Origin: Nitrospirae bacterium CG2_30_53_67
Lineage (GTDB): Bacteria > CG2-30-53-67
DNA: 7,232 nucleotides
Direction of reading: 5' to 3'
Assembly: GCA_001873285.1 (NCBI GenBank)
Contig: MNYV01000047.1
Coordinates: 1 to 7,232, forward strand
Shown: positions 1,537 to 6,795 of the stretch, in pieces
Position numbering within the stretch: position 1 is the first letter of the stretch
How the letters are laid out: each line of letters begins with the position of its first letter
Program-made: the position numbers and the translations under genes
The notes under the pieces: model-generated
The model's database searches: none
What the model saw: only the letters and a program-made list of their open reading frames with translations
Told to the model about the DNA's origin: nothing

Positions 1537-1900
1537 GGTAGGTTGTCGGCAAAGAACCTTTTCAGGTGCTGAAAAGCCTAAAAGGGAAGAGGGTGAGAAT
1601 CCCTCACGGACCCGCCGCTGTGATCGGGTTGTGTCATCGCAAAGTGGTCCTGTTCGTAAATATGGTGAAGCACCGAGAGGGTCGTAGGGCGGTCTCATCA
1701 AGGCGCGCGACTGCGGCGTACCCCATGTGGTACGCCGCAAAGAGCGGAACGCCGACGAGACGGCGCTACGGCACTCGAATGCCGCCGTATTTACGAATAG
1801 GGCCACTCAAAACCACTGTCTGCCTCAGGCGGACGGGAAGGTGCGATGAACTTCCTCCAACCGGACGTTGGAGGCGCCCGTAAGTCAGAAGACCTGCCTG
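1537..1900 (+). promoter_or_regulatory. Cobalamin (B12) riboswitch aptamer with an expanded peripheral arm
   Basis: The conserved B12 box AAGTCAGAAGACCTGCC occupies 1882-1898. Its 3' part (1891-1898) pairs with GGTAGGTT (1537-1544) to form P1. Further stems are visible: CTTTTCAG/CTGAAAAG (1558-1565 with 1569-1576), the conserved AAAGGGAAG core at 1581-1589, GAGGG/CCCTC around 1589-1605 and ACCCG/CGGGT (1610-1614 with 1625-1629) enclosing the CCGCTGT motif. TCATCGC/GCGATGA (1634-1640 with 1843-1849) closes the peripheral arm, and CCTCCAAC/GTTGGAGG (1854-1861 with 1867-1874) follows. Family members bind adenosyl- or other cobalamins and shut off downstream genes. The aptamer is 364 nt, well beyond the usual roughly 200, owing to the block at 1643-1807. 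A terminator and the cobU-cbiA operon follow directly. Confidence 0.93.
1643..1807. repeat. 165-nt self-complementary insertion within the riboswitch
   Basis: The block folds back on itself almost end to end. A 23-bp outer stem (1643-1665 with 1785-1807) has three mismatched or G-U positions. A middle stem (1683-1705 with 1750-1770) has a few mismatches and an AA bulge, and an innermost perfect 10-bp stem GCGGCGTACC/GGTACGCCGC (1713-1722 with 1729-1738) has a 6-nt loop. It sits inside the riboswitch stem 1634-1640/1843-1849 and encodes no plausible protein. The ends AGTGG...CCACT could be terminal inverted repeats, with a possible CAA on each side, as in a MITE-like element; three bases are too few to prove duplication. 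Alternatively it is a natural extension of a peripheral arm. Confidence 0.7.
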
Positions 1901-2142: not shown

Positions 2143-2685
2143 ATGGGAAGATTCACCTTGATCATCGGTGGTGCGAGGAGCGGGAAAAGCCGGTTCGCCC
2201 TGAAGATAGGAGAGAAAGTCGGAAAGGACCGAATCCTTGTGGCCACGGCCCGGTCCACCGACCCCGAAATGGAGGGGCGTATCCTGAGGCACAAACTGGA
2301 ACGCGGACCCTTGTGGGAGACATTCGAAGAGCCGCTCGATGTCGTCTCCCTGCTCGGTTCTTTTCAGTCCGGCGCCCATGTGGTCGTGATCGACTGTTTG
2401 ACCGTGCTTCTTTCCAACCTGATGATTGAAAGGAAGTATGAAGATGAGGAGCTCCTGTGCGAGATCGACTCCCTCGCCTCGGCCGTTCATAAGTCTCCCT
2501 TTCCGGTGATCGCCGTGGCCAATGAGGTGGGCATGGGTCTGGTTCCCGCGGAGCCCCTGGGGAGACGGTTCAGGGACCTGGCGGGCATGGCCAACCAGCG
2601 TCTGGCAGAAGCGGCTGACGAGGTTTTTCTGGTCACGGCGGGAATCCCGCTTTGTCTAAAAAAATTGGAGATGCATGATGAGTGA
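2143..2685 (+). CDS. cobU: Adenosylcobinamide kinase / adenosylcobinamide-phosphate guanylyltransferase
   Basis: This bifunctional cytoplasmic enzyme phosphorylates adenosylcobinamide and then attaches GMP to give adenosyl-GDP-cobinamide, the activated corrinoid for CobS. The 180-residue product has the usual CobU length. The P-loop GGARSGKS is at residues 9-16. His50, in RILRHKLERGPLWETFEEP, corresponds to the histidine guanylylated in characterised CobU. The Walker B region VVVIDCLTVLLSN contains Asp84, and the signature VANEVGMGLVP is at 125-135. ATG 2143 places the P-loop correctly; the AGGAG at 2125-2129 is 13 nt upstream, a long spacing, so initiation may be modest. It is the first gene after the riboswitch and its 3' end overlaps cobT. 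No key residue appears missing. Confidence 0.95.
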   Translation: MGRFTLIIGGARSGKSRFALKIGEKVGKDRILVATARSTDPEMEGRILRHKLERGPLWETFEEPLDVVSLLGSFQSGAHVVVIDCLTVLLSNLMIERKYEDEELLCEIDSLASAVHKSPFPVIAVANEVGMGLVPAEPLGRRFRDLAGMANQRLAEAADEVFLVTAGIPLCLKKLEMHDE

Positions 2686-3745
2686 CAATGGGATGCAGAA
2701 GATCAACGAGGTGATCCGCAGGATCAGGCCCATGGACCCGGACCTGGACCGACGCGTACAGGCAAGGTTGGATGATCAGGTCATGCCCCTCCGCGCTTTG
2801 GGGAGGATCCAGTCCCTGGGAAAGCAGGTGGCCCTGATTCAGGGCAAAGAGCGGCCCGAGATCCGTCACAAGAGGATCTTTACCTTTGCAGGTGATCACG
2901 GTGTGGTGGAGGAGGGGGTTTCGGCCTTTCCTAAAGCAGTGACCCGGGAGATGGTGCGAAATTTCGTGAGGGGCGGCGCCGGCATCAATGTGCTGGCCCG
3001 GCATGCGGGCGCCGAGGTTGTGGTGGTGGATATGGGAGTGGACGGCGATCTTCTGGAGCTTTCGGGGATTGAACATCAAAAGGTGGCGCGGGGGACCCGG
3101 AATTTCACACAGGGTCCGGCCATGACCAGGGAGCAGGCCGTCTCGGCAATCAACATCGGGATCTCCCTTGCAGAGAAATACGGCGATCAAACAGACCTCA
3201 TCGGCACCGGAGACATGGGGATCGGGAACACCACCCCCAGCAGCGCGATGGCGGCCGTGCTCACGGACCGGCCCGTGGCCCAGGTCACGGGGAGAGGGAC
3301 CGGCATCGGGGACGAGGCGCTGCAGCGGAAGATCCGGGTGATCGAAAAGGGGATTGCAGTGAACCAGCCGGACCCTTCGGATCCTCTCGACGTCCTGCAC
3401 AAGCTCGGCGGTTTTGAGATCGCCGGGATTACAGGCCTGATCCTCGGTGCGGCGGCCCGCAGGATCCCGGTGGTCATCGACGGGCTGATCTCCACGGCCG
3501 GGGCCCTGATCGCTTATACCCTCGCGCCCCAGACGGCTCCTTATATGATTGCCGCTCACCGTTCCGTGGAGATCGGCCACCAGGTCATGCTCGACCGGAT
3601 GGGACTTCAGCCTCTCCTCGATCTCAATCTCCGTCTGGGAGAGGGGACCGGAGCGGCCCTCGGTTTCTTAATCGTTGAAGCGGGGGTCAAGGTCTTGAAT
3701 GAGGTTTTGACATTTGCGGAGGCGGGTGTGTCGGAGAAATCATGA
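2675..3745 (+). CDS. cobT: Nicotinate-nucleotide--dimethylbenzimidazole phosphoribosyltransferase
   Basis: CobT transfers phosphoribose from nicotinate mononucleotide to dimethylbenzimidazole (or another lower-ligand base), giving alpha-ribazole phosphate. The 356 residues match the family length. Hallmarks are AGDHGVVEEGVSAFP (72-86), the glycine-rich GTGDMGIGNTTPSSAM (177-192), VTGRGTGIGDE (204-214) and LRLGEGTGA (319-327); Glu323 is equivalent to the catalytic glutamate. Two adjacent ATGs, 2675 and 2678, compete. GGAG at 2667-2670 is 4 nt from the first and 7 nt from the second, so 2678 may be the real start. Either overlaps the end of cobU (by 11 or 8 nt), and the stop overlaps cobS as ATGA, indicating translational coupling. 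The base actually used cannot be read from the sequence. Confidence 0.95.
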   Translation: MMSDNGMQKINEVIRRIRPMDPDLDRRVQARLDDQVMPLRALGRIQSLGKQVALIQGKERPEIRHKRIFTFAGDHGVVEEGVSAFPKAVTREMVRNFVRGGAGINVLARHAGAEVVVVDMGVDGDLLELSGIEHQKVARGTRNFTQGPAMTREQAVSAINIGISLAEKYGDQTDLIGTGDMGIGNTTPSSAMAAVLTDRPVAQVTGRGTGIGDEALQRKIRVIEKGIAVNQPDPSDPLDVLHKLGGFEIAGITGLILGAAARRIPVVIDGLISTAGALIAYTLAPQTAPYMIAAHRSVEIGHQVMLDRMGLQPLLDLNLRLGEGTGAALGFLIVEAGVKVLNEVLTFAEAGVSEKS

Positions 3746-4512
3746 TGATCGATGATGGTATGATTCGTGAATGGCCCCGGCGGTTTGCCACGGCCTGGCG
3801 GTTCCTGACGATCATCCCTCTGGGTCCGGAGGCGGACCTCTCTCCGGAGAGGCTGGGGAAGTCCATGGCCATGTTTCCGGCGGTGGGGCTGGTCCTGGGG
3901 CTGATCCTGGTCGGGCTCCATGCTCTTCTTGGTTACGTATTCCCAACATTGCTTGTGGACCTCTCGGTGATTTCATCGCTGATCCTCATGACCGGAGGTT
4001 TGCATCTGGACGGGTTTGCGGATTCGATTGACGGACTGGCCGGCGGCAGGAACCGGGAAGAGATTCTGGAGATCATGCGGGACAGCCGGGTCGGGGTCAT
4101 CGGGGTCATTGCGCTCATTCTCCTGATCTTCTTCAAGGTGGTCTCCTTGGACCAGTGCCCCGAGAGATGGAAGCCGGGCCTGCTGCTCTGCATGCCCTGC
4201 ATGGGCCGATGGTCCATGCTTCAGATGTCCGCCTTTTCCAGATATGCCAGAGAGGGGGAGGGGACCGGGAGGGCCTTTGCCGATTTTTCGGGGCGGCCGG
4301 AGTATCTCGTGGGGTTTGTCTTTACCTCTGCGGCCGTGATTCCGGCCCTCGGGCTCAAAGGGCTCCTGATCCTCGGCCTGATCGGGCTTACGACCTATCT
4401 CACGACCCGGTTTTTCGAGGCCAGACTCGGAGGGGTGACCGGCGACACCCATGGGTTCACAGGGGAACTGAGTGAGGCCCTTTTTCTCTTGCTGGGAGCG
4501 GCCGTGTTATGA
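3742..4512 (+). CDS. cobS: Adenosylcobinamide-GDP ribazoletransferase (cobalamin synthase)
   Basis: CobS is the integral membrane enzyme that joins adenosyl-GDP-cobinamide with alpha-ribazole or its phosphate to complete cobalamin. The 256-residue product has hydrophobic segments at about 43-67, 70-85, 117-135, 187-222 and 243-256. Family motifs are visible: GGLHLDGFADSIDGLAGG (85-102, with the acidic residues thought to bind metal), MRDSRVGVIG (112-121), GRWSM (155-159) and GVTGDTHGFTGELSEA (231-246). Start and stop codons overlap both neighbours as ATGA, so it is coupled to cobT and cobC. The first seven residues contain two further Met codons, so the exact N-terminus is slightly uncertain. 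Confidence 0.94.
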   Translation: MMIDDGMIREWPRRFATAWRFLTIIPLGPEADLSPERLGKSMAMFPAVGLVLGLILVGLHALLGYVFPTLLVDLSVISSLILMTGGLHLDGFADSIDGLAGGRNREEILEIMRDSRVGVIGVIALILLIFFKVVSLDQCPERWKPGLLLCMPCMGRWSMLQMSAFSRYAREGEGTGRAFADFSGRPEYLVGFVFTSAAVIPALGLKGLLILGLIGLTTYLTTRFFEARLGGVTGDTHGFTGELSEALFLLLGAAVL

Positions 4513-5135
4513 AACCAATAAGAGCGCATCAAGTTCGGACCAGGGTTTATATCGCCAGGCACGGACAGGTGGAAAACTTCATATCCGGGGTCTACAACGG
4601 GCAGACCGATGTGCCGATTACACAGGTGGGGCGGGAGCAGATGCTCTCCCTGCTGGACAGGGTACGGGGCTGCGGCATCTCCGCGGTCTATTGCAGTGAC
4701 CTTTTCCGTACGGTGGAGGGAGCGGAGATCATCGCCGGAGGCCTGAACCTCCCCTACGAGAAGCTCCCGGGGCTCCGCGAGCGGAACTTCGGGGACTGGG
4801 AAGGTCTGACCTACGAGGAGATCGGAAGGGACTATCCGGATCTTTTCGGCTATTGGCAGAAAGACGTGACCGCGGTTCGGCCTCCCGGAGGCGGAGAGAG
4901 TTCCTATGACCTTTCCGAACGGGTGCTCAAGACCTATCTCCCTCTGCTGGAGAAACACAGTGGCGGGAATATCTTCATCGTTGCGCACGGCGGCGTGAAC
5001 CGTCTGATCCTCGCCCATGCCATGAAGCTTGAGATCCGATACATCTTCAGGATGGACCAGGCCTTCGGGTGCCTGAACATGATCGATTATTATGACGACG
5101 GGTTTGCACACGTGAAACTGATAAACGGGGTATAG
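4509..5135 (+). CDS. cobC: Histidine phosphatase, probable alpha-ribazole-5'-phosphate phosphatase
   Basis: A 208-residue member of the phosphoglycerate-mutase-like histidine phosphatases. The catalytic motif YIARHGQ contains His18. Further active-site elements are Arg67 in YCSDLFRTVEGAE, Glu91 in LRERNFGDWEG and the second histidine His160 in IVAHGG. The segment NGQTDVPIT after the first motif is typical of CobC/GpmB-type enzymes. Biochemically the superfamily is broad, so the substrate (alpha-ribazole phosphate or cobalamin phosphate) is inferred from position between cobS and cbiA. The start overlaps the cobS stop as ATGA. The roughly ten residues before the first strand are a little longer than usual, but coupling supports this start. 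Confidence 0.88.
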   Translation: MKPIRAHQVRTRVYIARHGQVENFISGVYNGQTDVPITQVGREQMLSLLDRVRGCGISAVYCSDLFRTVEGAEIIAGGLNLPYEKLPGLRERNFGDWEGLTYEEIGRDYPDLFGYWQKDVTAVRPPGGGESSYDLSERVLKTYLPLLEKHSGGNIFIVAHGGVNRLILAHAMKLEIRYIFRMDQAFGCLNMIDYYDDGFAHVKLINGV

Positions 5136-5144
5136 GAGCTGACA

Positions 5145-6524
5145 TTGAAACGTTTCGTCATTGCCGGTGTCTCGAGCGGTGCAGGGAAGACCACGGTCTC
5201 TCTGGGGCTGATGGCTGCGTTCATGGAGGATGGGCTTTCGGTCCAGCCGTTCAAGACCGGTCCGGATTTCATTGATCCGCTCTTTCACACAAAGATCTGC
5301 GGCCGCTCCTCACGCAACCTGGATGGATGGCTCATGGGAAGAGAGGCTGTCCTCTCCTCGTTCCAGAGGGCATCCCTGGGTGCGGATATCTGCGTGGTTG
5401 AAGGGGTCATGGGACTCTTCGACGGGTATGACGCAAGGTCCGAAGCCGGCTCCACGGCCGAGATCGCCAAGTGGCTGCATGCGCCCGTGATCCTCACGGT
5501 GGACGCCCGCTCCATGGCCCGAAGCGCGGGCGCCCTGGTCCGGGGGTTCGAGACGTTCGATTCGGCACTCAATGTCGCCGGGGTAATCTTCAACCGGATG
5601 GGGAGCGAGAGGCACATGAAGTGGCTGACCCAGGCCGTGGAGGATCACTGCGGGGCGAGGTGCCTGGGAGGACTCTTGCCGGATGCAGATCTGACCCTGC
5701 CCGAGCGTCATCTGGGGCTTTCCACGGATCAAGTGGGCCGGATCGACGAGGCCTGGATCCGGAGACTGGCTCTCGGCGTCCGGCAGGGGATGGATCTTTC
5801 AGGGCTCCTCGACCTTGCCGAAGCAGGACCGCTTCAGCCTTACAGTGACCCGTCCGGCACGCCCCATGTGGGTAAGGGAGTCCGGATCGGCGTGGCCATG
5901 GATGAGGCCTTCTGTTTCTACTATGAAGACAACCTTGACCTTCTCCGGGACATGGGGGCTGAACTCATCTTTTTCAGTCCGCTTCATGATTTGCGCCTTC
6001 CCGGGAATGTGGACGGGCTTTATCTGGGCGGAGGGTATCCTGAGGTCTATGCGGAACACCTGAGTCAGAACCAATCCCTGCTTATGGAGGTCAGGGAGGC
6101 GGCGGAGTCCGGGCTCCCCATCTATGCGGAGTGCGGCGGCATGATCTTCCTTTCCCGGGGGATCTATGATGCGGGGGGGGACCTCTATCCCATGGCCGGT
6201 GTCTTCCCCTTTGAAACCGAGATGCTCACCCGTCGGCAGGCACTGGGATATGTCACGGTCATCCTGGAGGAGGAGAACCTGCTGGGGAGCCCCGGTGATG
6301 TGATCCGGGGGCACGAGTTTCATTACTCCCGGATCAGAGAGATGGGCGGCGCTGTGCGGTGCACCACATCCGTGCAAAAACGGGCCGGAGAGGAGAAATA
6401 CCCCGAAGGGTTCATGGTGAAAAACACCTTCGGGAGTTATGTCCACCTCCATTTCGGTTCCCAGAAGAACCTTGCCGGCAATTTGGTACTGAGGATGAAA
6501 CAGGCCCGGGCCAAGACCGGGTAA
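5145..6524 (+). CDS. cbiA: Cobyrinate a,c-diamide synthase
   Basis: CbiA uses ATP and glutamine to amidate the a and c carboxylates of cob(II)yrinate. Its 459 residues are full family length. The N-terminal synthetase domain has the P-loop GVSSGAGKTTVS (8-19), FKTGPDFIDP (36-45) and VEGVMGLFDG (85-94). The C-terminal class-I-like glutaminase domain has GLYLGGGYPE (291-300), the nucleophile Cys330 in AECGGM, RGHEFHYS (388-395) and His436 in SYVHLHFGS. It begins with TTG at 5145, 6 nt after AGGAG (5134-5138); the first ATG downstream would delete the P-loop, so TTG is well supported. It follows cobC by 9 nt. In other settings this family amidates Ni-sirohydrochlorin (CfbB), but the B12 neighbours favour CbiA. 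The last 133 codons are repeated inverted at 7232-6831. Confidence 0.94.
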   Translation: MKRFVIAGVSSGAGKTTVSLGLMAAFMEDGLSVQPFKTGPDFIDPLFHTKICGRSSRNLDGWLMGREAVLSSFQRASLGADICVVEGVMGLFDGYDARSEAGSTAEIAKWLHAPVILTVDARSMARSAGALVRGFETFDSALNVAGVIFNRMGSERHMKWLTQAVEDHCGARCLGGLLPDADLTLPERHLGLSTDQVGRIDEAWIRRLALGVRQGMDLSGLLDLAEAGPLQPYSDPSGTPHVGKGVRIGVAMDEAFCFYYEDNLDLLRDMGAELIFFSPLHDLRLPGNVDGLYLGGGYPEVYAEHLSQNQSLLMEVREAAESGLPIYAECGGMIFLSRGIYDAGGDLYPMAGVFPFETEMLTRRQALGYVTVILEEENLLGSPGDVIRGHEFHYSRIREMGGAVRCTTSVQKRAGEEKYPEGFMVKNTFGSYVHLHFGSQKNLAGNLVLRMKQARAKTG

Positions 6525-6562
6525 AGAAAAGAGGATCATCTCCAAAAGAGTGGGTGAAAAAT

Positions 6563-6795
6563 CAGGGGTCAAGGGGTCAAGGATTCCAGGGGTCAAGTGA
6601 AGTGCTAAAGACATAAGGGGCCGAGGGTCATAGGGTTCAAGGATTCCAGTGTTTTTCTCTGGAGATTTTGCTTGCGTTTAAGTATTTCACTTGACCCCTT
6701 GAACCCTGGAATCCTCGAACCCTATGACCCTCGGCCCCTTATGTCTTTAGCACTTCACTTGACCCCTGGAATCCTTGACCCCTTGACCCCTGATT
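6563..6795. repeat. Octamer-periodic repeat block downstream of cbiA
   Basis: After a short unremarkable spacer (6525-6562), octamers run in phase from 6565: GGGGTCAA, GGGGTCAA, GGATTCCA, GGGGTCAA. From 6611 they continue GACATAAG, GGGCCGAG, GGTCATAG, GGTTCAAG, GATTCCAG. The right side (6687-6795) carries complementary units such as CTTGACCC and CTTGAACC. The family matches 2034-2110, including a shared GACATAAGGG lead-in. The part nearest the centre (about 6606-6649 with 6706-6749) may be a genuine hairpin and a bidirectional transcript end; the outer part of the right side belongs to the fold-back. No gene is visible between 6525 and 6830. Confidence 0.75.

Follow-up and report, generated by a model that had tools for sequence, protein, structure and literature searches.

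A cobalamin riboswitch split by a palindromic block

The window, a 7,232-nt stretch (positions 1–7,232 of contig MNYV01000047.1, assembly GCA_001873285.1) from Nitrospirae bacterium CG2_30_53_67, carries a cobalamin riboswitch 5′ of cobU-cobT-cobS-cobC-cbiA on the same strand; the riboswitch, the element and the genes described here lie on its forward strand. The first gene 3′ of the riboswitch is cobU-like (2143–2685; Pfam CobU, 5.9e-55), and Pfam matches identify cobT-, cobS-, cobC-like (histidine phosphatase) and cbiA/cobB-like genes at 2675–6524, a set that fits the expectation for a B12 leader. Two further repeats were seen in the window. Repeats of another family, the GGGTCAAGG/CCTTGAACC type, are present at 2035–2110 and, in palindromic form, at 6560–6790; the cobU leader of G001, a congener, was not alignable to the former place. 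The contig end (6123–7232, 1110 nt) is a 97% inverted repeat of itself in which the end of the cbiA/cobB-like gene occurs again; it probably arose when the assembly folded back at a palindromic repeat.

The riboswitch was recovered as two low-scoring matches to Rfam RF00174, at 1547–1671 (33.9 bits) and 1711–1915 (34.4 bits), both above the gathering score of 31.5 and each extending from its own side into a 165-nt nested palindrome at 1643–1807 that splits the aptamer. The 5′ part of the aptamer (1547–1642, from Rfam and the empty-site alignment below) continues through the 5′ strand of a host stem, and the 3′ part (1811–1915, from Rfam and the orthologue alignment) starts just before a CCACTG hairpin and includes the B12 box, AAGTCAGAAGACCTGCC. 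The host stem, TCATCGC (1634–1640) with GCGATGA (1843–1849), closes the element-bearing arm in both sequence and in silico folding and is intact. A terminator-like hairpin, CCCCG..CGGGG followed by a T-run (1962–2000), is kept in G001 and is the probable expression platform.

The block as a whole had a minimum free energy of −106.6 kcal/mol (z = −11.4); shuffled versions averaged −59.3, and 0 of 200 were as stable. Its left and right terminal inverted repeats (1643–1665 and 1785–1807), whose termini are kept across 50 copies, are complementary at 87% across 23 nt, and the two sides of the innermost hairpin, the apical stem at 1712–1739 (1712–1725/1726–1739), are 93% complementary. The original prediction of a 165-nt palindrome lodged in a cobalamin riboswitch, with the host stem unbroken around it, is thus borne out by the fold, the divided Rfam match and the intact pairing. 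Its three stems (23-bp outer, about 20-bp middle, 10-bp inner) were right as to a nested palindrome with 23-nt arms, but the fold contains more segments than three. Given the dispersed copies, the family's target duplications and the fold, we place the MITE-like palindromic element, GTGG...CCAC, at 1644–1806; counting in the outermost A/T of that duplication widens it to 1643–1807.

Dispersed copies and target-site duplication

The block is repeated throughout its own genome (2.36 Mb, 183 contigs), where a search recovered 40 scored places at identities of at least 86%, the window copy included; nearly all were full length, and partial and reverse-strand matches were found besides. A 20-nt terminus occurred 88 times forward and 87 times in reverse, compared with 1 and 0 for a reversed-pattern control, which corresponds to approximately 85–90 copies. 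Many copies were also found in all five sampled relatives from the same bacterial family, and none in either of the two sampled genomes from a second family of the same class. A few occurred in three bins labelled Desulfobacteraceae, Desulfosarcina and Deltaproteobacteria, which may reflect transfer or binning error; one element in the Desulfobacteraceae-labelled bin (L130, 670–831) has the same ends and a largely different core. The element termini had 0 matches in viral contigs, the element had none in a plasmid collection, and no Rfam family corresponds to it.

Copies are mostly 163–167 nt long, with variants of 48–270 nt that are still palindromic and two composites of 225 and 377 nt that contain a nested copy; all are too short to encode a transposase. 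The longer variants (L114, 1580–1786; L115, 1428–1616; L127, 1877–2067; L134, 6840–7109) carry extra hairpins, for example CCTGCCTGTGCC..GGCAGACAGG, and are palindromic throughout, which suggests modular growth. Only 2.9% of junctions fell in stop-free frames of at least 900 nt, versus 35.7% of random nearby positions, so the family is biased to intergenic sites. At one locus (L004, 1489–1502) a copy sits at an apparent stop codon just 5′ of another gene, and its TAA duplication preserves the stop. Elsewhere, no copy in the 57 loci searched overlapped an Rfam RNA, the nearest cases being adjacent tRNAs, 6S and SRP RNA.

Among the flanks of 100 distinct copies, 35 were TTA/TTA, 28 TAA/TAA and one TTA/TAA, giving a matched TTA or TAA pair at 63; C preceded and G followed the duplication in 66. 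These counts define the target as C-TWA-G (CTWAG) with TWA duplicated, and the family ends as GTGGYCCTRTTCG with that duplication. A 5-bp duplication of CTWAG was rejected and the 3-bp reading adopted because the inner G/C of GTGG...CCAC hardly vary among copies, unlike the outer C/G. The window copy is imperfect in this respect, with AAA (1641–1643) and TCA (1807–1809) at the left and right 3-nt duplication positions of the family frame. The CAA duplication proposed originally does fit when the frame is shifted by one base (CAA/CAA), but it departs from the family rule and is doubtful.

Empty sites in related genomes

The CobU of G001 is 88% identical to that of the window and likewise has a riboswitch 5′ of its gene, which was recovered as a single RF00174 match of 99.6 bits that lacks the block, compared with the two partial matches in the window. 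The cobU riboswitches of two further genomes, G003 and G005, are also undivided and block-free (single matches of 111.4 and 108.2 bits). At the insertion point, GTCATCGC-AAAAA-CCACTG in G001 aligns to CATCGCAA, the block (AGTGG...CCACT) and CAAAACCACTG in the window, with one A run in G001; when the window riboswitch is joined without the block, it differs from G001 by one A in that run, in either frame. In silico joins of fourteen other sites from the same genome were used as queries against G001, and five aligned across the junction and are therefore empty there, three of them colinear and gapless over 70 bases on each side and two (L003 and L017) with small indels nearby. The window riboswitch agrees with known RF00174 members in its core, B12 box, gene context and single-match orthologues, and differs in that the linker before the peripheral-arm CCACTG hairpin is broken by a mobile element.

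A weak cobalamin riboswitch in G002 (L102, 1501–1681; 37.6 bits), which matches poorly where the CCACTG hairpin usually lies, was considered as another interrupted case and rejected, having a low score but no block copy; it is a degenerate or variant riboswitch.

Conservation of the fold and search for a mobilising enzyme

Across 50 non-redundant copies, 97.6% of cells were in standard pairs and 15 pairs had changes on both sides. None of 500 shuffles reached the observed values, and slid controls were 33–46% paired, a comparison in which the tested structure is favoured because it was derived from the same copy alignment, although the double changes are unaffected by this. The stems covary across copies, and the family thus keeps its fold. 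This conservation could arise from selection on the RNA, from selection on the DNA hairpin during transposition, or from template-switch correction between the arms.

Genes matching DDE_Tnp_1, DDE_Tnp_1_2 and Y1_Tnp were searched, and none had element ends on both sides; a PF13586 profile search gave no matches, and in six loci with single element ends, whose reading frames were listed, no gene lay between two ends. DDE_Tnp_1 was rejected as the parent, as its matches, three of them in the same genome, lack element ends and one has ends of its own (GAGCCTGTTGCACAA). Y1_Tnp genes were present in all eight genomes searched. At one Y1 locus (L249 of G005, 1319–1355) a lone element end lies approximately 12 nt 5′ of where a Y1 (RAYT-like) transposase gene starts, an arrangement that could be due to chance.

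Predicted effect on the riboswitch

When folded in silico, the block forms nearly all its pairs with itself (0.004 expected pairs to the host), and the pair probabilities of the host computed with the block and without it have a correlation of 0.988, in a thermodynamic model that ignores pseudoknots, ligand and RNase III. Relative to G001, the core (1585–1642) has one difference in 58 positions (98.3% identical), the B12-box stretch (1886–1915) none in 30 (100%) and the downstream leader (1916–2000) two in 85 (97.6%), whereas the upstream spacer (1395–1530) has 21 in 136 (84.6%). This contrast points to constraint on the riboswitch overall; the constraint would have persisted after insertion, with conservation from before that event forming an inseparable part of the same signal. 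There is no T-run 3′ of the element stem, which should therefore not act as a terminator, and the downstream hairpin with its T-run is conserved. Folding and conservation together suggest that the riboswitch likely works with the block in place and that the insertion was probably near-neutral for ligand sensing. The proposal that it was tolerated as an independent arm agrees with these two lines of evidence, and it is on these grounds that we retain it.

Origin of the block and alternative explanations

The element has terminal inverted repeats, short length without a transposase, dispersed copies, a target duplication (imperfect at the window copy) and empty sites, all features of a MITE; an autonomous partner with matching ends was not found among the DDE_Tnp_1, DDE_Tnp_1_2 and Y1_Tnp genes searched. 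The block belongs to a new MITE-like family, with one insertion in a riboswitch. Dispersed copies, empty orthologous riboswitch sites, family-wide target duplications and five other empty sites all support the mobile insertion put forward in the original prediction, and we consider it highly probable that the block is a non-autonomous palindromic MITE-like copy that transposed into the peripheral-arm linker, should fold on itself and is probably near-neutral for sensing. The empty orthologous sites show that the element entered a single-stranded linker just 5′ of the CCACTG hairpin; folding and conservation suggest that, once transcribed, it would fold alone as a side arm on the intact host stem. 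The core of the aptamer and its B12 box, as well as the terminator-like hairpin further downstream, would then stay free to work.

The other reading offered originally, that the riboswitch arm is natively this long and binds a second partner, could draw on the covarying stems and on the location of the block in a peripheral arm, but it is almost certainly wrong: a native extension would be expected to recur at this position in orthologues and nowhere else, and here the orthologous riboswitches of G001, G003 and G005 lack the block, the genome holds some 85–90 occurrences of it, and no other copy among the searched loci overlaps an Rfam RNA. Nor is the block confined to this riboswitch among relatives, which would have counted against mobility, since it is dispersed genome-wide and in 5/5 of them. 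Misassembly of the metagenome could in principle have placed a repeat inside the riboswitch, the assembly being fragmented and the end of this very contig being an inverted repeat of itself, but we regard this as highly improbable, because the window copy has private substitutions, both flanks continue one orthologous riboswitch, and other copies occupy sites that are empty in G001.

Y1 (IS200/RAYT-type) transposases, rather than a DDE transposase, might have moved the family as a REP-like palindrome, as the Y1_Tnp genes in 8/8 genomes and the one just after a solo element end (L249) would allow; REP/RAYT palindromes would be expected to show linkage to a RAYT gene and no target duplication, and Y1 elements are not known to duplicate their target. 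With clear 3-bp duplications in this family, and 19 of the 20 Y1 loci fetched lacking a convincing element end, we find this route quite unlikely. It is also unlikely that the insertion disables or alters the riboswitch, through misfolding or RNase III cutting of the 23-bp stem, leaving the B12 operon constitutive, off or differently processed. In its favour are the length and near-perfect pairing of the outer stem, and the proposal that RNA from the Neisseria NEMIS/Correia MITEs is an RNase III target (PMC2229807), but the window and G001 hardly differ in the core, B12 box and downstream leader while the spacer has diverged by 15%, and host pairing in silico is the same with and without the block. 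Finally, if the element fold were under RNA selection, its insertion in the aptamer could have turned the riboswitch into a composite one, with B12 control receiving a second input from the MITE hairpin via RNase III or a host protein, a scenario to which we give a very slim chance.

Comparison with known elements and implications

Like other prokaryotic MITEs (PMC10969869; for example QMITE2, Correia/NEMIS and RUP), the element is short and non-coding, with terminal inverted repeats of 20–30 bp, a target duplication, many intergenic-biased copies and a very stable hairpin transcript. It differs in being almost fully palindromic, and no parental insertion sequence was found among the transposase families searched. 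Palindromic repeats in structured RNAs are already known: Rickettsia palindromic elements (RPE) sit in tmRNA and RNase P M1 RNA (Ogata 2002, as cited in PMC2229807). As described there, these share with the window element a similar size and tolerance within a structured functional RNA, whereas the host here is a ligand-binding riboswitch aptamer. A pneumococcal BOX element lies between two T-box riboswitches of trp (PMC3049150) and is, similarly, a small mobile repeat that shares its transcript with riboswitches, in a leader that apparently still functions, but it lies between two riboswitches rather than inside one aptamer. In the open literature that we searched, an incomplete sample, no published insertion within a riboswitch aptamer was found, the closest being this BOX/T-box case and speculation in a review.

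The family described here, whose stems covary and whose 3-bp target is defined, spans an uncultured lineage and is undescribed as far as we searched. Its insertion in the cobU leader provides a natural test of how modular a ligand-binding RNA is, namely a self-folding 165-nt unit placed in one peripheral-arm linker, and the empty site in G001 offers a comparison for the riboswitch with and without the block.
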